Source: a virus. From it: a stretch of DNA of 24,010 nt. This document shows, piece after piece, positions 3,785 to 22,125 of this stretch. Position 1 is the first letter of the stretch, and each line of letters opens with the position of its first letter. The stretch spans positions 1 through 24,010 of the IMG/VR virus record IMGVR_UViG_3300033144_002533. One strand, 5' to 3'. Below the pieces are notes generated by a model. It did no database searches. It was not told the DNA's origin and worked only from the letters and a program-made list of their open reading frames with translations. A program made the position numbers and the translations under genes.

Positions 3785-4215
3785 TCAGTTGTAGAGCAAG
3801 TACGCACCACCGCACTTACGAAAGCCGAGTCGTTCGGCCAACTTCCACACCAACGGATCGATGTGATCGCTGTCCGGTACGATACCGGCAACACGGATGA
3901 TGCGCCTGGCATCAACCCATTTCAAAAATTCCTTTACCATCTTGCGGCCGTCACCGACCACGACCGCCTTCCAGAGCGCAATAATACAGTTCTGTCGCTG
4001 CGCCCAAAGATTGTTACTTGACACCGCCAGCAGCGCACCGTTGACGCGGCCATCGTCCGTGCTGACCCACGCGAAGTGTTTCGCCGAACTGATCGCCGTC
4101 CTGATGCCCTTGCGGATCTTCTCTCGATCCGGTAGCAGCTTCGGGTACTTGCTCGCCTCGATGAATGCAATCTCGAAGATCGCGTCCATGTCGGCCAATG
4201 TCGCTGGTCGTATCA

Positions 4216-4216
<1 letters not shown>
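3785..4216 (-). CDS. GNAT-family acetyltransferase-like protein
   Basis: The 143-residue protein begins MIRPATLADMDAIFEIA, a typical N-terminus of GCN5-related N-acetyltransferases. It ends LAERLGFRKCGGAYLLYN, matching the usual final helix and strand of the fold. The acetyl-CoA loop region is around residues 84-100 (VVVGDGRKMVKEFLKW), but it departs from the classic Q/RxxGxG/A pattern, so catalysis is uncertain. The ATG at 4216 overlaps the upstream stop (TGATG); a GTG one codon earlier is possible. GNAT-like proteins are known among internal virion proteins of T7-like phages, and this one sits directly before a one-helix virion protein. It may therefore be structural rather than an enzyme. 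Fold assignment is moderate; role is inferred. Confidence 0.72.
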
Positions 4217-5592
<1,376 letters not shown>

Positions 5593-5614
5593 CTTAAATG
5601 CTCCATCTAATTTG

Positions 5615-6940
5615 TCAGTCTAGCTTTGTGAGAGCAAGGAAGCTCCCCGCCTCAAAATCCAAATCGCCCACTTGTGCCGTGCTTTGAGCGAACTCGACTT
5701 GAATTGAATTAGTGCCGCTGGTCACATCTAACGTCCCGGTGTAGTAGATCTGATCGGTTCCGGAGCCGGTAGAGAGTGACGGAAACAGCATTACGTCTTG
5801 CAATATGCCTTGAAGATCGGTCGTCGGTGCGCCAGATCCGGAGAAGTTTTTAACCGCTCCGCGTAAGACGCTAGTGCCGCCAACGCCGGTCGTGGAAATG
5901 TCAGTTCTCATGCCACAACCGGAGACTGCCACATCGCGAGCGTTTACCACCATAAGCAGGCTGTAGCGCCCAATCGGAATGTTAGTGAGCAGCAGTTCTG
6001 AATCTATCAACGTGGTCGTATTGTTGACGGTATCGTCTAGTGCTTGCTCGACAAACTGATGCCTTCCCGCAGCGCCGCCAATTGCAAAGTCAGTGCCAGC
6101 ATCATCCGTGAACATCAACGTGTTCGGCACATCGTCACGTACCCAAACCTGACCGTAAGCGGCAATATCTGCGACCGCTGCTGCTGATTCGCCAATCAAC
6201 ATTGGAACCTGAACCAACATGTAATCTTCAGTCGATTCGACACATCGAACGAATTCAACGCCGCCGGCGATCAAACTCATTTCATCAACTGCGTTGCCGC
6301 CGATACCTGTATCAATGTCGCCTGATCTCGGCAGAATAGTAGGCACGGTTGTTGTCGGCGCTTGATTCCGGAATCCTGCTCGCGACAGACTTACGCTGCC
6401 GAAATTAAACGCATTCATTTGATACAGTGCGGAACCGGCTATGGAGACATATATGCTGTCATCGGTGTTTTCGAAAAATCCTGAATCACCGTCGCCAAAG
6501 GCAAGCGTCGGAGTAACCGCATCGTTTGTTGACGGCAGAACCAGATGAAGGCCGCTTTCCAACATAACCACTTCGGAATCGACGCCAGTGTCGTCCGTGT
6601 ACATCAAGATATTTGGCACATCGTTACGCACCCAAACTTGACCTAAAGTAGCGGTATCTCCTGCCGCTGCGGCTCGTTCCTCCAAATACAAAGGAATGTC
6701 GTTGAGTCTCAGACCGGTCGTGTTGACGGCCCCGAAGTTGAAAAACGTGCCATCGTGCTGCATCGAGAAAGAATCAGCGAAAGTGGCATCGGTAAATCGT
6801 ACTTCACGGCCGCCAGCTATCACGAATGCAGCTACGCCTGCCGAGAAAGTCATTACGAACTCGTCGCTGTAGTCCACCCCAAGCGTTGCATGACCGCCGT
6901 AGTACGAAACCGCTTTCTTGAACGATGAAAGTGGTTCCAT
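5615..6940 (-). CDS. Tail fibre, C-terminal fragment (receptor-binding end)
   Basis: This 441-codon frame is the distal part of a fibre gene that begins at 7543. The first 15 or so residues from its ATG probably belong to the wrong frame; fibre-like sequence is clear from about GGHATLGVDYSDEFVM. It is beta-rich and carries two copies of a GQVWVRxDVPNxLMxTDDxG module (6569-6643 and 6080-6154). Short predicted-strand segments follow, and a C-terminal domain (RYSLLMVVNARDVAVSGCGM and onward, ending FEAGSFLALTKLD) plausibly forms the receptor-binding tip. There is no convincing ribosome site at the ATG, and an in-frame TAA lies just upstream, so independent translation is doubtful. It follows the nozzle-like gene and an N-terminal fibre fragment, as expected for a podoviral fibre. 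Confidence 0.78.
   Translation of the reverse strand: MEPLSSFKKAVSYYGGHATLGVDYSDEFVMTFSAGVAAFVIAGGREVRFTDATFADSFSMQHDGTFFNFGAVNTTGLRLNDIPLYLEERAAAAGDTATLGQVWVRNDVPNILMYTDDTGVDSEVVMLESGLHLVLPSTNDAVTPTLAFGDGDSGFFENTDDSIYVSIAGSALYQMNAFNFGSVSLSRAGFRNQAPTTTVPTILPRSGDIDTGIGGNAVDEMSLIAGGVEFVRCVESTEDYMLVQVPMLIGESAAAVADIAAYGQVWVRDDVPNTLMFTDDAGTDFAIGGAAGRHQFVEQALDDTVNNTTTLIDSELLLTNIPIGRYSLLMVVNARDVAVSGCGMRTDISTTGVGGTSVLRGAVKNFSGSGAPTTDLQGILQDVMLFPSLSTGSGTDQIYYTGTLDVTSGTNSIQVEFAQSTAQVGDLDFEAGSFLALTKLD
6080..6154 (-). repeat. Fibre module copy 2 (GQVWVRDDVPN-type)
   Basis: This encodes GQVWVRDDVPNTLMFTDDAG plus five residues. It is a diverged copy of the module at 6569-6643, 489 bases away, and both are preceded by an alanine-rich stretch. 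This suggests internal duplication within the fibre shaft. Confidence 0.75.
6569..6643 (-). repeat. Fibre module copy 1 (GQVWVRNDVPN-type)
   Basis: This encodes GQVWVRNDVPNILMYTDDTG plus five residues, and is the proximal copy of the duplicated fibre module. The DNA is recognisably similar to that of the second copy but not identical, so the duplication is old. Confidence 0.75.
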
Positions 6941-7226: not shown

Positions 7227-7543
7227 TTGGTGAGCGCAACTGCGCCAATTCCATCGACATCGATCGTGGCCGCACCGGTGTTCGCGTGAGTCGCAAAGAA
7301 TCGAACGCCATCGCCATCTGCATTAGCCAGGCGCGTGTCGGGCATCGTCACGACATAAGCGTTACCGCTGCCGCTCTCCGGTGCGAAGATCGATGTGTCC
7401 GTTGTGATCGCTTCGTTGCTGTCAGGCATAAAGTCGAACGCATTCTGGATTGCCTGAAACTGCAAATTGACGGCATCAGATCTGACCTTCGAGCCGGGAT
7501 CGAAGTCAGGATCAAATTCGTAGTATTGGTTGGTGACTGTCAC
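7160..7543 (-). CDS. Tail fibre, N-terminal (virion-attachment) fragment, prematurely terminated
   Basis: The start overlaps the stop of the upstream nozzle-like gene (ATGA). The fragment contains MTVTNQYYEFDPDFDPGSKV, then NLQFQAIQNAFDFMPDSNEA, then SIFAPESGSGNAYVVTMPDT, a pattern I associate with the N-terminal domains of podoviral fibres. After ...GSAFVPMPD at about 7191 the frame runs out of fibre-like sequence and stops at 7160 with LYWPQRSMQI. Restoring one T in the minus-strand ATTTG at 7191-7193 would continue into the middle fragment (PDFVLAATLDANL). The break is therefore either a natural one-base loss or a homopolymer sequencing error. The sequence does not look like a -1 slippery heptamer. 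Confidence 0.78.
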   Translation of the reverse strand: MTVTNQYYEFDPDFDPGSKVRSDAVNLQFQAIQNAFDFMPDSNEAITTDTSIFAPESGSGNAYVVTMPDTRLANADGDGVRFFATHANTGAATIDVDGIGAVALTNWDGSAFVPMPDLYWPQRSMQI

Positions 7544-9795
7544 CGCTGTAGCCTCCGCATATCATAGTGCAACGTGATTCCCTGCATCACCCACGGATCT
7601 GAAAAAGCTGTCTCGTTGAAGATCAGAAAGCTGATGTTCTCACCAGTGCCGCGTAGTTCCGCTCGCGCGGTTGTAAGTGCTTGACCGTCCCACTGAAATT
7701 CGTCCCAATTGTCGATGTCCCAAAAACCACCGCCGCCTACGATGTCAATCGTCGGAATGTTTGCTATCTGATCGAGATTATCAACACTGCTCGATGACTC
7801 CAATGCGCTGTAGGAAAGATCGCTCTGGAATGAAAGTGTCAGTTGCCCCGGTGTGTTCAGTTCGAGATCCACACGCCGGAACTTCTTGCGGCGTGAAGGC
7901 GATCCAACCTGATTGAATGCCGTTCGTATATATGACGCTATCTCGTCGCCATCGAAATTCTTGCCGATCTGATCCTCGAACACGAAGCCTTCATTCGTCA
8001 CATCATTGGTGCAGAAATACGTGCGCTCTTTGCCGTTTTCGTCGTCGGTGTTGTAGATGCTTTTCACCGGGATGTCATAGGACAGAAAACCGAACTCCGC
8101 AGGAGTTTTCGCTGTTCTCCTTCGGACTTGGGTTTCAGCCTGCGAACCGGCCGTGACGTACATCACCAGACAACTGTTGTCGGTGAAATACATTCGGAAC
8201 TGGTTCGACTCGCGCACGATCGTTGAGTCATTAAAATTCTTTCGTGCCGCGATTAGGATCGGTTGCACTTGCTGAGACACGGTTGCCGATATGAAATCAC
8301 CGAACTGATCGGATCGGGCGACTGAAGTGATGCCAAGATCATCGAGCGAATACACAGTGTCGATCTTTTTAGATCCATACAGCAGAGATCCGGACTGCTC
8401 CGCAATGAGTCTGAGTTCCCAATCGATCACACCCGTTCCGAACAGGCCGCGTGTCTCGCGCGTAGTCGAAACGATCAGTGCGTTACCCACGACGCTGTTG
8501 AGCGACGTACCTTCGTCGCCGAGGCCGAACTCACCGGCTCCGAGGAACGCCTGCCAGTTCATCGGTACGCCGGGAATCGAATGTTGCAGAGATCCACCGG
8601 GGAACATGAAGAACAAATGATTGCGGTGTTCTTCGACAAGAAATGGCGTATTCGTCGGTGCAATGCCAGAGCCAGGCAGAGTCGTAAGTGGGTTCGTCGG
8701 CATCAGGATCGGCGACACGATCATGTTCTCATCGATCTCGAAGCCGGGATCGATGCCGTTGCAGCCATACGTCCGGTACGTGCCAGATCCGCCGAAGAAA
8801 TTGTGATTATGAAATCGGTATATGCCATTAGGGGAAAATGCAAATGTTACGTTCGCACCAACAGCATCGGAGAGGCGCGTCAAAGCAGGCGATTCGAGTT
8901 GTTCGCCATTTGTGAACGGCCCACCGACTACGTTTATCAGAACGTAATAGCCTTCACCTGAGCCATCCCACGCGACCGAGCCGCCGTTCAGAACTACTCG
9001 ATGGATCTCCGCAGTCGCACCGCTAGATCCACCGGTTATCGTGGCACCCTCGCCAATGGTTTCGCCGGCCAATTCTGCATTTTCAAAGCGAATGTAATCG
9101 GCCATCGTAATGCCAGCCGTGACCCAACCGGCCGCGCTTGAGTGGTGCATAACGCCAACCGTTTCGCCAATGTTGTTTCGCCATGCATAGATGTCGGCCT
9201 GCCGCTGCCATGCTCCGCGCACCCGACCTGCGCCTGGCACTTCGATAATGTCGGCCCGGTAGTTGTCCTCGGCTTCAAGTAGCCAGATTTCTTCCTGATC
9301 GGCATTCGGTGCGGCCAGTACGACCGGGGTGTTGTTGACCGTGTAATCACCGGCGTTGAGGCCTTCGCCGTTATTGAAAACACCTGTGCCGCCGCTGACC
9401 TTTGTCACACCCATCCAGTCAGTTCCGACTTGCAGGGCTGCATCTTCCGCTGAATCATCCCAAAGGCCACAGACCTCACCGGACGTACCGCTAATATCAC
9501 CCGTTACCGTGTCGCCGATCGCCAGCAGGGGTGTAGTGATGTCCGTGCATTCAAAGCCAACGTAGCTCGCGTCAGACGGCTTGGGCTGGCCGTCGAATCG
9601 TTCGTAACCGGGAATGCGGCGGTAGCCGCCTTCGTACCACGGCTCGAAGTTGACCATCGCGAGCGCGCGGCCGGGATCGAGCGTAAGCGCCGGCGACACA
9701 ATATCCAATCCGCCGGCCAACGCATAGTATTGCGTTCGAGTTGTATTTCTACCGCGTCGAGTTCTATCGCCGCGACGAGGAAACATTTCAGACAT
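7540..9795 (-). CDS. Large virion structural protein, probable tail nozzle or hub
   Basis: The 751-residue gene starts 6 bases after the adaptor gene, with GGAG upstream. Its N-terminus has basic residues (RRGDRTRRGRNTTRTQYYAL) and then AGGLDIVSPALTLDPGRALA and NFEPWYEGGYRRIPGYERFD. I associate this pattern with large structural proteins encoded right after the head-tail adaptor in short-tailed phages. The rest is beta-rich with many glycine and aromatic residues, without enzymatic motifs or membrane segments. Size and position match the tail tubular B / nozzle slot of T7-like phages (gp12, about 790 residues) and the P22 gp10 slot. The role is inferred from context plus pattern; the virion assignment is strong and the exact equivalence is not. 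Confidence 0.85.
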   Translation of the reverse strand: MSEMFPRRGDRTRRGRNTTRTQYYALAGGLDIVSPALTLDPGRALAMVNFEPWYEGGYRRIPGYERFDGQPKPSDASYVGFECTDITTPLLAIGDTVTGDISGTSGEVCGLWDDSAEDAALQVGTDWMGVTKVSGGTGVFNNGEGLNAGDYTVNNTPVVLAAPNADQEEIWLLEAEDNYRADIIEVPGAGRVRGAWQRQADIYAWRNNIGETVGVMHHSSAAGWVTAGITMADYIRFENAELAGETIGEGATITGGSSGATAEIHRVVLNGGSVAWDGSGEGYYVLINVVGGPFTNGEQLESPALTRLSDAVGANVTFAFSPNGIYRFHNHNFFGGSGTYRTYGCNGIDPGFEIDENMIVSPILMPTNPLTTLPGSGIAPTNTPFLVEEHRNHLFFMFPGGSLQHSIPGVPMNWQAFLGAGEFGLGDEGTSLNSVVGNALIVSTTRETRGLFGTGVIDWELRLIAEQSGSLLYGSKKIDTVYSLDDLGITSVARSDQFGDFISATVSQQVQPILIAARKNFNDSTIVRESNQFRMYFTDNSCLVMYVTAGSQAETQVRRRTAKTPAEFGFLSYDIPVKSIYNTDDENGKERTYFCTNDVTNEGFVFEDQIGKNFDGDEIASYIRTAFNQVGSPSRRKKFRRVDLELNTPGQLTLSFQSDLSYSALESSSSVDNLDQIANIPTIDIVGGGGFWDIDNWDEFQWDGQALTTARAELRGTGENISFLIFNETAFSDPWVMQGITLHYDMRRLQR

Positions 9796-15628: not shown

Positions 15629-15991
15629 TCATATCTCCGTTGAACCGATTTCATTGCCATCGTCATCTTCGATGGTCAGGATTTCTTTCGCCGGGGCTTT
15701 TTTGCGACCTTTCTCGCGCACCGTTCTGAACGATGGGTTCAAGTCGTCGTCGAAAACGATCGCGTAATACGTGAAGCCGGGCAGCTTGTCTGGATCTGCC
15801 AGGTGCTTCGCAACCGCAGCGTGATCTGTCTCAAGGAAGCACTGAACAACTTCGTCATGCTCGATGAGCGGCACTTCTTTCACGGCCGGGATCGCTGGTT
15901 GGTCATCTGTGGCCGGCACTTTGGCAACGGCCGCAACGAATTGCTGATCGACGTAAGTCTTTTTTCGTACAACTAGAAAGTTGTGGCTCAT
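15629..15991 (-). CDS. Small hypothetical protein following the portal
   Basis: This encodes 120 residues and overlaps the portal stop by ATGA. It begins MSHNFLVVRKKTYVDQQFVA, with an alanine/proline/valine-rich middle (KVPATDDQPAIPAVKEVPLI). A mixed alpha/beta stretch (VVQCFLETDHAAVAKHLADP, FTYYAIVFDDDLNPSF) precedes an acidic tail (EDDDGNEIGSTEI). I do not recognise the family. Coupling to the portal suggests a role in head or connector assembly. Confidence 0.75.
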   Translation of the reverse strand: MSHNFLVVRKKTYVDQQFVAAVAKVPATDDQPAIPAVKEVPLIEHDEVVQCFLETDHAAVAKHLADPDKLPGFTYYAIVFDDDLNPSFRTVREKGRKKAPAKEILTIEDDDGNEIGSTEI

Positions 15992-18201
15992 ACCCCTGCT
16001 CCTGTTTCACGCCTGAGCGTGTGTTCTTTCAATGCGACAACATTATCGAGCGCCTTCGTTTGGCGCGTAGTACGATCTTTCATCTTTTCGATGCCGAGCT
16101 TCTGGTACATGTCACTCAACTTCAAGCCCTTATCGAGCGCCAGTTTCGCAAAGCCGAGTTGCGCCGTCATTTCCAGCTTCATCACTTCGCGCTGGTGACG
16201 CATCTTGTCATCTTCCCTGTTCTTTTCGAGTTCGGCTTTCTTGAGTTCAATCATCGGATCAGGCGGCGGCGGATTTTCTTCGATGAAGGCTGCCTGCTCG
16301 TCATCATTGCGGAAGAATCGCGAGGCATCTTTGTAGCCGAGCGATCCGTAGATCTCGTCGGCCACTTCAGATGATTTCATGCGCGGTGCCATTTCAGGCA
16401 GGCTCGCAGCATTTTGTGTTGCGTACATCAGCTTCTCGACGCGCTTCTGCGGATCGGTGTTACCCATTCCGACATTAACGCGCACCGTGAGTTCGTTGAT
16501 GAGCAAATCGTCAGTGATCTTGTCGATACCAAATCGCTGATACAGGCTGATCTTTTTGGCCGCCAGCGACAGAATCGTTTTGTCCGTTTCGTAGAACTGC
16601 TCAAGCCGTACCAGTTGCCGCAGCGTTGGTTCGGCCCAAGTCTCGAAGAAGATCCGCAGGCCATAATCCCTGACGGCACCAGCACCGGTGGACATAGCTT
16701 CCATGCCGCCGACTGTCTCGTTGAGATTTTTGTTGGACTGAACGGATGTCTGCGAGAAAGAGCCGGTCAGTTCGTCCATTTCGACGCTGAGTCGGTCTTG
16801 CTCCTGATACGATGATCCGGTCACATCGCGGGTATCTACTGTCTGAACATCCTTTTCGGGATCGTTCATCATCACGCCGCCGCCTGGCACGTTGCGAATT
16901 AACGCATCGAGATCCACTTGGCTACCGCGACGGATGTAGTACCGCTTATTGAGAACCAGCTTCACGTTATCGAGTCGCTGGTTCGCGACGACATTGATTT
17001 CTTCTTGCAGCCCTGCTGCCTGCTCAACGTCGCCAGCCGGATAGTTCCTGAAGGCCTCGATGGTGCTGAAGCCAACCGCGAATGGACGTTCACCTTCTCG
17101 TAAATGCGGGAAGGCATCAGTGAGCTTCACCGGATCTGTGAGGATCAGTTCAGTTCCCATCGTCCAGTACATCATGTCGTCGCCATTGATCTTGACGATA
17201 TTCATGTGCGCCCACAAAGTAGAATAGGCGCTGCTGGCCTGATCGTCAGCCGGGTCTATTCTACGTCGCCCTTCACGCGCTTGGCGTGTCCGGTCGTACC
17301 ACTTCTTGCGGGTTGCCAGCAGATCTCCCATCGCGTACTTACGCCATGTCGGCTGGCCGGTCTTGTCATCCATCTTCTCCATGTTTTCCATTGCCGCGTT
17401 TGCATAGATCGGCATCATGTAGATCAGGTAGGGCGACGTACCACACGGATCTCGCCAGTCGCACATCGGATCGAAGCGGAAGTTTTCAGGCGCGATCAGG
17501 TCAACGACGAGATCGTCCTTGCGAATCTTATCCATTTCGAAACCCATCAGGGTTCCGTCCTCATCGATGATGTATTCGCCGTTGTCGTCCTGAGCCGGGA
17601 TCACATCAGTGTCAACGTGGTAATCCCATCGCTGCATCGAAATGCACAGGCCGTACACCTGAGTGGACTGGTAGGCTCCGATCACGGTCTGATACCACTT
17701 CACCTTTCGGTCGAGGCGGTACTGAAGGATCTCTTTGTTGATCGCTGCACTGGCTAGTTGAACCAGATCCGTCTGATCTTCAGCCTGTATGTCCAGCACA
17801 TCGAGTGTCGAGAACATCGCTGCGGTCAGCGCGGCCTCGCTCGATTTTGTCATCGATCGCGTTTTCGGCCGGAATACGCGCGAGCGTTTGAAGTTTTTGG
17901 AGCGGAATTTCGAAGTCGTGCTGTGTTCGTTGTTGAAGTGATTGAGGTTGGTTTCCCACTGATTCGTGATATTCGAATCGAGGTAATCGGTGCTGGCGCG
18001 ATAGATCGTGCGCGCGGTTTCGATTAACTGATCGTCAGATGACACGAACTCTAACGCTTCATCGACATCACCATCCTCGGCGGCATCGATTGTCGATCCA
18101 TAGCCTGAGCGATCACTCGTCGGTGAATCGCCAGGCGGAAGATCCTGCGGCAGCCGACGATAGGGTGCAGTTACTTCAGATTGGTGGACTTCCGTTACCA
18201 T
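15988..18201 (-). CDS. Portal protein
   Basis: The portal forms the dodecameric ring through which DNA is packaged and ejected. I chose the ATG at 18201 (MVTEVHQ) because GGAGG lies 9 bases upstream; a start 11 codons earlier would overlap the preceding gene. The 737-residue length fits large podoviral portals (P22 gp1 is 725). Recognisable stretches are SMTKSSEAALTAAMFSTLDV, WYQTVIGAYQSTQVYGLCIS, and the core LQEEINVVANQRLDNVKLVL followed by NKRYYIRRGSQVDLDALIRN. Later, LNETVGGMEAMSTGAGAVRD precedes FFETWAEPTLRQLVRLEQFY. The C-terminus is a charged helical barrel-like tail (KKAELEKNREDDKMRHQREV). It sits in the classic terminase-portal-scaffold-capsid order. Confidence 0.9.
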   Translation of the reverse strand: MVTEVHQSEVTAPYRRLPQDLPPGDSPTSDRSGYGSTIDAAEDGDVDEALEFVSSDDQLIETARTIYRASTDYLDSNITNQWETNLNHFNNEHSTTSKFRSKNFKRSRVFRPKTRSMTKSSEAALTAAMFSTLDVLDIQAEDQTDLVQLASAAINKEILQYRLDRKVKWYQTVIGAYQSTQVYGLCISMQRWDYHVDTDVIPAQDDNGEYIIDEDGTLMGFEMDKIRKDDLVVDLIAPENFRFDPMCDWRDPCGTSPYLIYMMPIYANAAMENMEKMDDKTGQPTWRKYAMGDLLATRKKWYDRTRQAREGRRRIDPADDQASSAYSTLWAHMNIVKINGDDMMYWTMGTELILTDPVKLTDAFPHLREGERPFAVGFSTIEAFRNYPAGDVEQAAGLQEEINVVANQRLDNVKLVLNKRYYIRRGSQVDLDALIRNVPGGGVMMNDPEKDVQTVDTRDVTGSSYQEQDRLSVEMDELTGSFSQTSVQSNKNLNETVGGMEAMSTGAGAVRDYGLRIFFETWAEPTLRQLVRLEQFYETDKTILSLAAKKISLYQRFGIDKITDDLLINELTVRVNVGMGNTDPQKRVEKLMYATQNAASLPEMAPRMKSSEVADEIYGSLGYKDASRFFRNDDEQAAFIEENPPPPDPMIELKKAELEKNREDDKMRHQREVMKLEMTAQLGFAKLALDKGLKLSDMYQKLGIEKMKDRTTRQTKALDNVVALKEHTLRRETGAGV

Positions 18202-18202
18202 T

Positions 18203-18652
18203 TCATGCTGCCTCCGGTGCGCTATCGACCGCAATCACGCTGTCTTGTGAATCGCGCGTCAGCGTTTCTAAGTGATCGGGATTGAAGTGCTTATTCCGCG
18301 ATACATTGTGTCGCTCAAGGATCTCACCGGCCGCCATCTTAGCCTGCTCGATCAATTCCCCGATCGTGCGCTTGTGCATCTTGATGTGATAACCCTTGAA
18401 ATTGCAAATAGAATCACAGGCAATAATGAGCAGTTCGCCCTCCAAATCAACTATGACCTTCCATTCACGCTGGTTGTAGGTGTGCATTAACTCCGTGCCG
18501 ATCCGCATCCCCATCCACTGTTCGAGCTTGGCTTTGCGCTCGTCCATGTTGTCGCCGACATCAATCTCGTTGTAGTCGGCCCACACGGTATCAGGGCCGC
18601 GCTTAGTGCCAGGCAGTAGGTGAATCCGCTGTGATGGGGCCAATACGGTCAT
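18203..18652 (-). CDS. Hypothetical protein upstream of the portal
   Basis: This encodes 149 residues; its start overlaps the upstream stop by ATGA and its end lies one base before the portal start. The protein opens MTVLAPSQRIHLLPGTKRGP, has a basic/acidic helix (NMDERKAKLEQWMGMRIGTE), a compact strand-rich core (REWKVIVDLEGELLIIACDS) and ends in charged helices. Several small genes in this slot in short-tailed phages are of unknown function, and I cannot assign one here. It is clearly coding and part of the packaging/head block. Confidence 0.78.
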   Translation of the reverse strand: MTVLAPSQRIHLLPGTKRGPDTVWADYNEIDVGDNMDERKAKLEQWMGMRIGTELMHTYNQREWKVIVDLEGELLIIACDSICNFKGYHIKMHKRTIGELIEQAKMAAGEILERHNVSRNKHFNPDHLETLTRDSQDSVIAVDSAPEAA

Positions 18653-19245
18653 GCCGCTACCTCATGTACGCCATATTCGTTGCACCACCGAAGCAGGGCA
18701 ATGTCGTCGTGATAAAGATCTTCTAGCTTACGAAGTTGATTGGCACTCATTCGTCCTTTCAGGCTGTCCCACGGTTCTCGATCAGAATATGTATGGAGTT
18801 CGTCATGCAGCAGCCTCGTCTTATTCAGATGACTCAACGGGTAGCCGGGTAATTCTTCGGCCCATGTAGCGGCGAGATTGTAGAACGGATACACGCGCGT
18901 TGGCAAAAATATGCCGGAATGCGTGTGAGTTCGCGCTTGCGATGCCCAATGCGCGTCGTTCTCGCGTCCCGCTCTGGTGATGAACGTCGCCAGCGATGTG
19001 CGCCTGCCAAAAATACCGTGGGCGCTGGCAAACTTCTCGAACGGATCTCGTACCCACAACAGCACCGGCCATCCCTGCGAGCGCCTGGCAAGTGCCTCGG
19101 CGACCGTAATCAGGTTGGCCGGGCTGTCAGAGTAAGCCGGCCGCAACGCCTCGGCCATCGAGTTCGAGCCGGCGCGCTGCGTGGTGCAGACCACCTTTTT
19201 CAGATCCCCGACTTCGTAGTACCGTGGCTGTGCCAGCTTTCTCAT
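18649..19245 (-). CDS. Sulfotransferase-like enzyme
   Basis: Sulfotransferases move sulfate from PAPS to hydroxyl or amino groups. From the ATG at 19245 (TAATG overlap with the upstream stop; the longer start at 19314 has no ribosome site), the protein has 198 residues. TTQRAGSNSM (residues 21-30) occupies the 5'-phosphosulfate loop position normally TxPRSGST-like. WVRDPFEKFAS (64-74) matches the RDPxxRxxS motif that binds the 3'-phosphate, and HLNKT (139-143) is the usual late strand motif. DLYHDDIALL near the end matches the common YxxDixly ending. The usual lysine or arginine of the first loop is present as R24. It is short for the family, and its embedding between terminase and portal genes is unusual. 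The target may be a carbohydrate or a virion protein; that is unknown. Confidence 0.82.
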   Translation of the reverse strand: MRKLAQPRYYEVGDLKKVVCTTQRAGSNSMAEALRPAYSDSPANLITVAEALARRSQGWPVLLWVRDPFEKFASAHGIFGRRTSLATFITRAGRENDAHWASQARTHTHSGIFLPTRVYPFYNLAATWAEELPGYPLSHLNKTRLLHDELHTYSDREPWDSLKGRMSANQLRKLEDLYHDDIALLRWCNEYGVHEVAA

Positions 19246-19544
19246 TAGGTGAATCTGCCCATGCAGATAGCTTCCGTCGATGCCGGGGTTGTGATGTTCC
19301 AGTTCGTCACGCATTTCGCGTTAAGCACGTAACGAGTGCCAACGGCCGCAGCCGCCGGGATCACAAGGATCACCACTGCACCGTCGAGAACGGTGATCGT
19401 TCCGGTGTTCGCTTTGACGACTACGGCATGCAATACGTCGCCTGCATCGCCAGCAGAGCCTAAAACCTGCGCAGTTGCCGACGCTCCGACCAACTCGTAC
19501 TCAAAGTCCAAGTGTGCCATCTGTGCTTTTCTTAAATTTCCCAC
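19245..19544 (-). CDS. Small beta-rich protein, possible decoration or head-fibre component
   Basis: The start is GTG at 19544, decided by a strong AGGAGA site six bases upstream inside the end of the terminase gene; an ATG at 19520 is an alternative. The 99-residue protein is rich in valine, alanine and threonine, with regular strand patterns (VVVKANTGTITVLDGAVVIL, VGTRYVLNAKCVTNWNITTP). It resembles small virion surface proteins in composition but has no diagnostic motif. Its stop overlaps the sulfotransferase start (TAATG), so the two are translationally coupled, which may hint that they act together. Confidence 0.72.
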   Translation of the reverse strand: MGNLRKAQMAHLDFEYELVGASATAQVLGSAGDAGDVLHAVVVKANTGTITVLDGAVVILVIPAAAAVGTRYVLNAKCVTNWNITTPASTEAICMGRFT

Positions 19545-19554
19545 AATAAATCTC

Positions 19555-21090
19555 CTATGCTGCTATCGAATCCGGTTCGAACGCATCATCTGGCTCGAAG
19601 TAGTTGTGATTCATATCGCCGATGTGTTCGGCGAACGTGTACGCGATCGCGTCACCTTCGTCTGGTGAGTCTAGGCCGCGCTTCTTCATGTCCTGCTTGC
19701 GCTCAAGGCGCATCTGCTCTTTGTCGTTGAAGCCGTACTCGATGCCGATCAGCGCATTGCGCAGATCCGCGTCGTTCGGGATGTCCATGCCCTCGGCCAT
19801 CATAATTCGCATCCGATCCCACATTTCGCACCGCTTGTTCCAGTACGTTTCCTTGTCGTCAGGCTTCATGCCGGCGTTCACTTCGATGATGTCGTGGCCC
19901 AACATCCGGAGTCGATCTACAACGCCGGCACCAACGCCGACGACATCTACGAAGGTGGCGGCCGGTTGGTATTTACGAATGGCGGTCACGACTTTTGCTG
20001 ACAAATGCATGGTATCGATTTCACGGAACTTGATTAACTCGATGATCTTGCGGCCCTGCCGAACACATATAACCGATTTATCTTCGCCGAATCGGGCCAC
20101 ATCAACACCGAGGACGATGGGGAGTTGGAAGAACGCCTCATAGGGCATTTCGGCGAGCATGGCGATGTCGCAGACTTCGCTACTGATGAACTGCATGCTG
20201 CCTGCGCGTGGAAATTGACCCTTGATTCGAACTCTGCAAAAGTCACTGTCCTCTCCATAAACCGCGATCTGTTCGGCAAGCTCTTTCTTGTTGGTCATCT
20301 TGCAATCGCGACTGTCAATCTGGTGAACAACCCAACGTGGATCGTTGACGAACATGTTGCGGAACTTGCCGGTGTTTCGCGTCGGGTTGCCGTAGCAAAA
20401 GTGCATGGCTCGCGGATCTGTCATAGCGCCTTCAGACACTTCGTAGATCGCGTCGGCGATGGCTGACGCCTCGTCGTAAATAATGAGAACGTGCGTACCA
20501 TGCAGCCCGGCGAACGCCTCTGAGTTGTGTTCGGTATTCGGCGTTGCCGAACAGAACCAAGTCTCCGGATGCTCTACATGGAAAAACTTGGTCGCAGTCC
20601 ATTTGAACCAGTGCCGATTGGCAGCGCGCTTGTGCCAGAGTGCAAGCTCTCGCCACGTTTTAGTGTTTAGCTGAGTCGTTGTATTAGCAGTGATGACTCC
20701 GTTGAGGTGAGGTCGAGTGGACATGGCCCACATAATGATCCATGCGACTTCAGCAGACTTGCCGATACCGTGACCGGAAGCGATTGCCTCACGGATAGTT
20801 CCTTCAGGATCTCGGCGTATGTTGGCGCGCACCCGATCCATCTGTTCTGCTTGCCATTTGTCAGGGCCATCATGTTCTTCTAGCTCACTTCCTTTCTCGC
20901 CCCACGGAAACGCATACATCACGTAGCCGAGCGGGTCATCATAAAACTGGTCAATGTCGTGGACTAATTGCGATTCAAATTCCTGCTCGCTTAACGGCTC
21001 ACCCTCTGTCCACTGTACGAATTCCGGTGGGCCATACTCCTGCTCAGGCATCGCCTCGAATTCTTCAATCTGTAGGGCAACCGATTTCAT
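19555..21090 (-). CDS. terL: Terminase large subunit
   Basis: This is the ATPase-nuclease motor that packages concatemeric DNA into the prohead, 511 residues long. ATPase motifs are the P-loop SGHGIGKS at 105-112, a Walker B VLIIYDEAS at 201-209, and between them GVITANTTTQLNTKTWRELA (131-150). The RNase H-like nuclease domain shows GVDVARFGED (328-337), FVDVVGVGAGV (380-390) and SPDEGDA (475-481), which provide the acidic metal ligands. All key residues are present, so it should be active. It follows the small terminase after one small gene. No convincing ribosome site precedes the ATG at 21090. The GHGIGKS-type loop is one I associate with terminases of several podoviruses. Confidence 0.95.
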   Translation of the reverse strand: MKSVALQIEEFEAMPEQEYGPPEFVQWTEGEPLSEQEFESQLVHDIDQFYDDPLGYVMYAFPWGEKGSELEEHDGPDKWQAEQMDRVRANIRRDPEGTIREAIASGHGIGKSAEVAWIIMWAMSTRPHLNGVITANTTTQLNTKTWRELALWHKRAANRHWFKWTATKFFHVEHPETWFCSATPNTEHNSEAFAGLHGTHVLIIYDEASAIADAIYEVSEGAMTDPRAMHFCYGNPTRNTGKFRNMFVNDPRWVVHQIDSRDCKMTNKKELAEQIAVYGEDSDFCRVRIKGQFPRAGSMQFISSEVCDIAMLAEMPYEAFFQLPIVLGVDVARFGEDKSVICVRQGRKIIELIKFREIDTMHLSAKVVTAIRKYQPAATFVDVVGVGAGVVDRLRMLGHDIIEVNAGMKPDDKETYWNKRCEMWDRMRIMMAEGMDIPNDADLRNALIGIEYGFNDKEQMRLERKQDMKKRGLDSPDEGDAIAYTFAEHIGDMNHNYFEPDDAFEPDSIAA

Positions 21091-21357: not shown

Positions 21358-22125
21358 TTACTCGTTAATGATGACTACTTCTTGTGTTTCGCTGTCGATT
21401 GTTTCGCCCTTGCGCTTGGCGTTCAACGCTTCGAGCCGCTTACGACCGCCCGACAGTATCGCCGCGTGGTTGATGTTGATGTCGCCTTCGTGCATGTGGT
21501 GCTTGGTATCCCCAAATCGACGCGGCGACCACTTCCCCGATAACCATTTCCTTGCATCAACCCGCAATCGGTCGCGGTTGATGACTTCGTGATTGATCTT
21601 GCCGTCCTCGTCCCGGTCAAACTCGCGGCTGTCAGCAATGTCGATGATGTCATCGCTGTAACTCTCGGCCTGCAACTCGCGAGCCTCGTCGTACAACTTC
21701 CGGATCGCCTTGTCCTTCAACAAAATCCGATACAACGTCCCAAGATGCTTGTCGTCAATGCCGCAACTTCTGAACGCCTGGCGTATCGTCTTGCCAATCG
21801 CGATCTGCTCCAACACATCATCAATCCGATCCATCGACCAGTCGCGCCTGTTCCACAACAACCGCGCATCACGCAGTTGCACCGTGGCCGATATGTTCGA
21901 AATAAGAAAAGCATCAACCGTTCGGATGCTGATGTTCGCCTTCTTAGCAGCCTCTCGCGGCGTAGCTCCATTGGCAGTCTGCTCGATCACCGTCTGCCAA
22001 CGCAGCTTGGTCATGTTCTCGCCTTCAGCAACGAGTCCAACCTTGCCGGGCTTGCGCCTGGTGTTCTTGACGCGCTTCTTGCCGCCATGATTCAACGCGA
22101 AGCCGGGCTTAGGTGCTTTCGCCAT
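21358..22125 (-). CDS. terS: Terminase small subunit, Sf6-like
   Basis: This is the DNA-recognition subunit of the packaging motor, 255 residues. After a basic N-terminus it has two helix-turn-helix-like units: ANGATPREAAKKANISIRTV (51-70) and IGKTIRQAFRSCGIDDKHLG (110-129). The central block LYDEARELQAESYSDDIIDI (144-163) and the block RLRVDARKWLSGKWSPRRFG (186-205) match the pattern I know from Sf6-type small terminases. The C-terminus is acidic, likely the contact with the large subunit. Two tandem HTH units are more than the single N-terminal unit usual in the family, so the second may be a divergent repeat. The ribosome site is modest (TAGGTC). It opens the packaging block. Confidence 0.88.
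   Translation of the reverse strand: MAKAPKPGFALNHGGKKRVKNTRRKPGKVGLVAEGENMTKLRWQTVIEQTANGATPREAAKKANISIRTVDAFLISNISATVQLRDARLLWNRRDWSMDRIDDVLEQIAIGKTIRQAFRSCGIDDKHLGTLYRILLKDKAIRKLYDEARELQAESYSDDIIDIADSREFDRDEDGKINHEVINRDRLRVDARKWLSGKWSPRRFGDTKHHMHEGDININHAAILSGGRKRLEALNAKRKGETIDSETQEVVIINE

Follow-up and report, generated by a model that had tools for sequence, protein, structure and literature searches.

A small sulfotransferase-like cargo gene between the terminase and portal genes of an SU10-like podovirus

Introduction

A small open reading frame (ORF) with sulfotransferase motifs between a large terminase and a portal gene of a phage raises the questions of whether it encodes such an enzyme, whether its site is unusual, and what it might modify. 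Several surveys count sulfotransferases among phage auxiliary genes, and their function in phage genomes has been called unclear (PMC10580990). Our search of the literature found no experimental work on phage sulfotransferase function or virion sulfation. We addressed these questions in a stretch of 24,010 nucleotides (IMG/VR record IMGVR_UViG_3300033144_002533; hereafter, the window) and in related contigs; all contigs of this phage group are metagenomic fragments.

Results and discussion

Gene order around the sulfotransferase-like ORF

The ORF (18649-19245, minus strand) encodes 198 aa from an ATG at 19245; a 221-aa alternative with an earlier start exists, but homology to the copy in a related phage (L003) favors the 198-aa start. 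All four motifs listed in an earlier note on this DNA were recovered. TTQRAGSNSM (residues 21-30) corresponds to the 5'-phosphosulfate loop for the sulfate donor PAPS, WVRDPFEKFAS contains the 3'-phosphate motif R66...S74, HLNKT occupies residues 139-143, and the C-terminal LYHDD overlaps YHDDIALL. We also found an HWxxQ motif at residues 99-103.

The minus-strand genes are transcribed in the order TerS (21358-22125), an 83-aa ORF, TerL (19555-21090), a 99-aa beta-rich ORF (19245-19544, GTG start behind AGGAG), the sulfotransferase-like gene, a 149-aa ORF without known family (18203-18652) and an SU10-like portal (15988-18234; Pfam SU10_portal PF23899, 1.6e-30). The TerS, portal and adaptor of the window match Sf6/SU10-type models. 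The gene thus lies between TerL and portal as first described, but its direct neighbor is the 149-aa gene, which it meets in an ATGA overlap, and not the portal. In 16 related contigs a version of the 149-aa ORF, at identities as low as 30%, precedes the portal; it is an uncharacterised core protein of the packaging block.

The TAATG junction with the beta-rich ORF is real, as the end of the upstream ORF overlaps the start of the sulfotransferase-like gene. The special link to the beta-rich protein that this had implied is weak. Overlaps of 1-4 bp occur at 8 of 27 junctions (hand-chosen gene list, minus strand of the window), so TAATG reflects operon compactness rather than partnership, and in L003 and L018, both without the beta-rich ORF, the enzyme starts on the TerL stop. 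The 99-aa ORF was found solely in the window and the near-identical L002, and its single-sequence model was uninformative (pLDDT 44.8). A more distant carrier, L008, also has a beta-rich ORF (98 aa) that meets the enzyme gene at a TAATG-type junction, a suggestive parallel; kinship of the two beta-rich ORFs was rejected, with no BLAST alignment between them.

Relatives and conserved residues

Relatives of the window protein were found in the same slot of the same or related phages (L002, a near-twin of the window, 99% identical; L003, 66%; L018, 45%), elsewhere in another phage (L008, 32-35%, tblastn 2e-21), and outside the slot in the contig of L023 (L030, 25%). The last was found by profile, and scored 22 bits with a profile that excluded it, against at most 2.5 bits for 500 shuffles. 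The recurrence in the same slot and in other phages, with dN 0.31 / dS 0.92 against L003, makes the ORF more than a chance reading frame.

Ten residues (R24, S27, S29, R66, P68, H99, W100, Q103, F121 and, close to the C-terminus, D181) are kept in all five divergent members (window, L003, L018, L008, L030). The window loop TTQRAGSNSM has the basic residue and S/T expected of a 5'-phosphosulfate loop, and for the R(x7)S 3'-phosphate motif the arginine is present in all five members and the serine in all but L018, which has C. In the window, L003, L008 and L030, both loops retain their arginines and serines. The L018 copy (4384-5001) has RAGS changed to RAAS, RDP to REP and S74 to C, and is perhaps inactive or altered; with key motif residues missing there, activity may not persist throughout the family, and these degenerate motifs show that activity in the slot could be lost or changed.

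A further ORF in the L018 slot (5137-5646; IPHTGTRF...MRHPVETARSW) has sulfotransferase-like motifs by eye and no database match. It was rejected as a family member, because 255 of 500 (family HMM A4) and 329 of 500 (A6) shuffles scored as high; with a cyanophage profile it was marginal (2 of 500 shuffles as high).

Evidence for a sulfotransferase

Taken alone, the window protein had no sulfotransferase match in Pfam, PHROGs or NCBIfam, including the Sulfotransfer_2 model (PF03567, curated cut-off 22 bits) and the PHROG 3347 profile. PDB sequence searches gave nothing meaningful, and cyanophage sulfotransferases were not recovered from the phage collection by tblastn. The L008 copy scores 24.7 bits with PF03567, above the 22-bit cut-off (E 3e-5; profile positions 69-97 and 155-228), and reaches E 0.051 with PHROG 3347. 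The PF03567 match ties the group to Sulfotransfer_2 even though the window protein fails on its own.

Of the three cyanophage sulfotransferases, two exceed the Sulfotransfer_2 cut-off. The motifs IPRT, R(N/D)P...S, FRP and Y..D follow one another in these proteins as their counterparts do in the window group. Profile-profile comparison of the two groups gave E 1.4e-4 (116 columns, probability 52%) over the second half of both, against E 0.44 for a TerL control. With family HMM A4, two cyanophage sulfotransferases beat all 500 shuffles and the third beat 498 of 500. The cyanophage profile matched nothing in the related contigs, window included, in a run without positive control.

The AlphaFold model of the window protein (pLDDT 82.4, pTM 0.81) is confident except at residues 141-154 and in a moderate stretch at 21-40, which contains the 5' loop. 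Its top matches among viral predicted structures were annotated sulfotransferases, including a giant-virus carbohydrate sulfotransferase 8-10, and gp5.1 of Roseobacter phage SIO1 (E 3.5e-4 to 7.8e-4); TM-scores to the viral sulfotransferases were moderate, at 0.42-0.63. The structural support is divided, with viral sulfotransferases below E 1e-3 and, as the best PDB match, a weak one to the sulfotransferase SULT2A8 (E 0.3, probability 0.38).

The sulfotransferase assignment of the earlier note is supported by homology, conserved motifs and, less evenly, fold, and lacks a family-library match for the protein itself. We consider sulfotransferase ancestry very likely, and the protein is probably an active sulfotransferase at present. 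It is a divergent addition to a kind of enzyme already known in other phages. The family libraries that we used do not recognise this group, so podoviruses may carry more such enzymes than have been counted. A host-derived copy was sought and rejected: no relative turned up in a plasmid search or in two scans of 84,980 bacterial and archaeal genomes, the latter dependent on short conserved peptides and blind to distant relatives.

A variable cargo slot behind TerL

The earlier note had placed the gene in the most conserved synteny of the genome, a site unusual for an auxiliary gene. We compared 16 contigs in which a related TerL (66-100% identical) and the 149-aa gene both occur, and found the first statement unsupported and the second weakened: the borders are conserved, and what lies between TerL and the 149-aa gene varies, as in a cargo slot. 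In L020, L021 and L025 the slot contains next to nothing, in L013-L017 and L022 a small basic ORF, and in L011, L012, L023 and L024 other small ORFs. The L014 slot also has a LAGLIDADG endonuclease (7464-7904) right after TerL, which may help slot mobility. The sulfotransferase-like family occupies 3 of the 16 slots (L003, L018 and, counted among them, the near-twin L002), too few for a core packaging gene, which would accompany this TerL and portal throughout the relatives. Among more distant phages, the TerL-portal gap of Pseudomonas phage HU1 contains a GNAT acetyltransferase (Pfam score just under the cut-off) and that of vir555 an ORF with weak resemblance to a papain-type amidase; MZH0603, Vibrio 1.185.O and Cobetia Carin1 have hypothetical ORFs there, and BIS08P22 has nothing. 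TerL and portal keep their order while the genes between them change, so a cargo enzyme in this gap is unremarkable.

Acetyltransferases were also seen at other sites. The window has a GNAT-like acetyltransferase among its late genes (3785-4219; PHROG 1249, 2e-13), the HU1 TerL-portal gap has a weak match to PHROG 1249, and SIO1 has an annotated acetyltransferase adjoining a tail appendage gene.

The sulfotransferase-like gene is under purifying selection (dN 0.31 / dS 0.92 against L003; 0.56 / 2.65 against L018, where dS is near saturation). For TerL the same pairs gave 0.07 / 0.93 and 0.16 / 2.36. The gene is constrained yet changes more quickly than the packaging core does, in keeping with a role as cargo.

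These data bear on two readings in which the protein is not an active sulfotransferase. That it is an unrelated protein with motifs by chance would fit the missing Pfam, PHROG and NCBIfam matches of the protein itself and the weak PDB fold match, and is very improbable given the motif set common to five divergent members, the PF03567 match of L008, the profile matches and the viral fold matches. A vestigial or non-enzymatic protein, its sulfotransferase fold retained for binding or as a structural element of the head or the packaging machinery, is somewhat less remote and still unlikely. The altered PAPS-loop residues of L018, the location among packaging genes and a dN/dS above that of TerL (0.33 vs 0.08) speak for it. 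Against it, the window, L003, L008 and L030 retain the loop arginines and serines, and the gene is missing from this site in most relatives that share the TerL, 149-aa gene and portal, which makes it dispensable for packaging.

Possible mechanism and substrate

The reading we favor, with moderate confidence, is a late-expressed cargo gene for a carbohydrate-sulfotransferase-like enzyme that acts on a surface component, either a virion appendage or a host glycan. In this SU10-like podovirus the gene, inserted between TerL and the conserved 149-aa gene, would be transcribed late, and its product would be a compact PAPS-dependent sulfotransferase of the cytosol with kinship to Sulfotransfer_2 (the carbohydrate-sulfotransferase group). 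The sequence argues for PAPS as the donor, which the host would have to make. In the 5' loop R24, S27 and N28 would hold it, together with R66 and S74 in the 3' loop, and an acceptor hydroxyl bound near HWxxQ would be sulfated. The invariant HWxxQ may help to form the acceptor site or take part in catalysis. We infer both the late timing and the substrate. Modification of a surface, a glycan or a small molecule, as the earlier note had suggested, is plausible; the late-gene position and the carbohydrate-sulfotransferase kinship together favor a surface component exposed late, likeliest the protein or glycan of a virion appendage or else a glycan of the host envelope. A change of the host envelope glycan would stop the loss of progeny to debris or sibling cells. 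If the protein is catalytic, we would rank a virion substrate first, a host surface glycan next and a small molecule or other acceptor last, each of them by itself short of probable.

The two surface substrates define narrower forms of this explanation. The enzyme might sulfate a tail, fiber or decoration protein, by tyrosine O-sulfation or on a virion glycan, and so alter receptor binding or particle stability. Sulfotransferase genes lie beside virion genes in several phages: that of P-SSM7 overlaps the end of the baseplate gene gp5, that of Sf-CH8 adjoins a tail protein gene on the opposite strand, that of S-T4 is about 2.3-2.5 kb from a tail fiber gene, and SIO1 gp5.1 (L029, 4688-5254), alike in fold only, lies between a tail-fiber-like gene and TerL. 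Within the window family, the L008 enzyme precedes an 890-aa LamG-domain protein and the L030 copy is between proteins of 746 and 715 aa without known family. The argument is one of neighborhood, from a small hand-picked phage set without control for late-gene frequency, so the adjacency is a lead and not a result. The sulfotransferase of Sinorhizobium phage AP-20-A, reported to lie in the replication region, is a counter-example (PMC13299392). In addition, we found no literature on tyrosine sulfation in bacteriophage virions, and the beta-rich partner is missing from same-slot relatives. We consider virion sulfation by this enzyme less likely than not.

Late sulfation of a host glycan or lipid, for receptor masking or superinfection control in the manner of a serotype-converting enzyme, is marginally more doubtful. 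Characterised Sulfotransfer_2 members are carbohydrate sulfotransferases, and the family's kinship, the giant-virus carbohydrate sulfotransferase 8-10 among the top fold matches and the Nol-like carbamoyltransferase adjoining the S-T4 gene are in line with it. However, no glycan-modifying companion was recognised among the window proteins searched, and late lytic expression would leave little time for surface remodeling. The surface-acting cargo enzyme in its broader form remains our preferred reading.

The recurring adjacency to late virion genes raises the question of whether phages sulfate their own virions. That diverse phages carry small late-operon sulfotransferases for sulfating the proteins or appendage glycans of their own virions, with the TerL-portal enzyme as one case, is a speculative proposal that we think unlikely as it stands; if true, it would be a modification for which we found no description in the literature.

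Comparison with known systems

With Sulfotransfer_2 (PF03567), the window protein shares the basic 5' loop, the R...S 3' motif, a PQ segment and the Y..D C-terminus in the same order; it differs in having 198 aa against the 252 positions of the model, and falls below detection by it. The galactose-3-O-sulfotransferase-like proteins of P-SSM7, S-T4 and Sf-CH8, whose annotation is the same as that of PHROG 3347, are also small (196-241 aa) and are profile-similar to the window group. The cyanophage carriers are large T4-like phages, and their gene is outside the TerL-portal slot, unlike that of the window.

SIO1 gp5.1 (188 aa, without annotated function) was the second-best viral fold match and carries VPKT and R...S motifs. 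It has no Pfam match and no meaningful sequence match to the window protein; the likeness is by fold alone, and the gene lies on the other side of TerL. The GNAT of phage HU1 is likewise a small group-transfer enzyme carried as cargo in the same TerL-portal interval, and differs from the window enzyme in fold, donor and chemistry.
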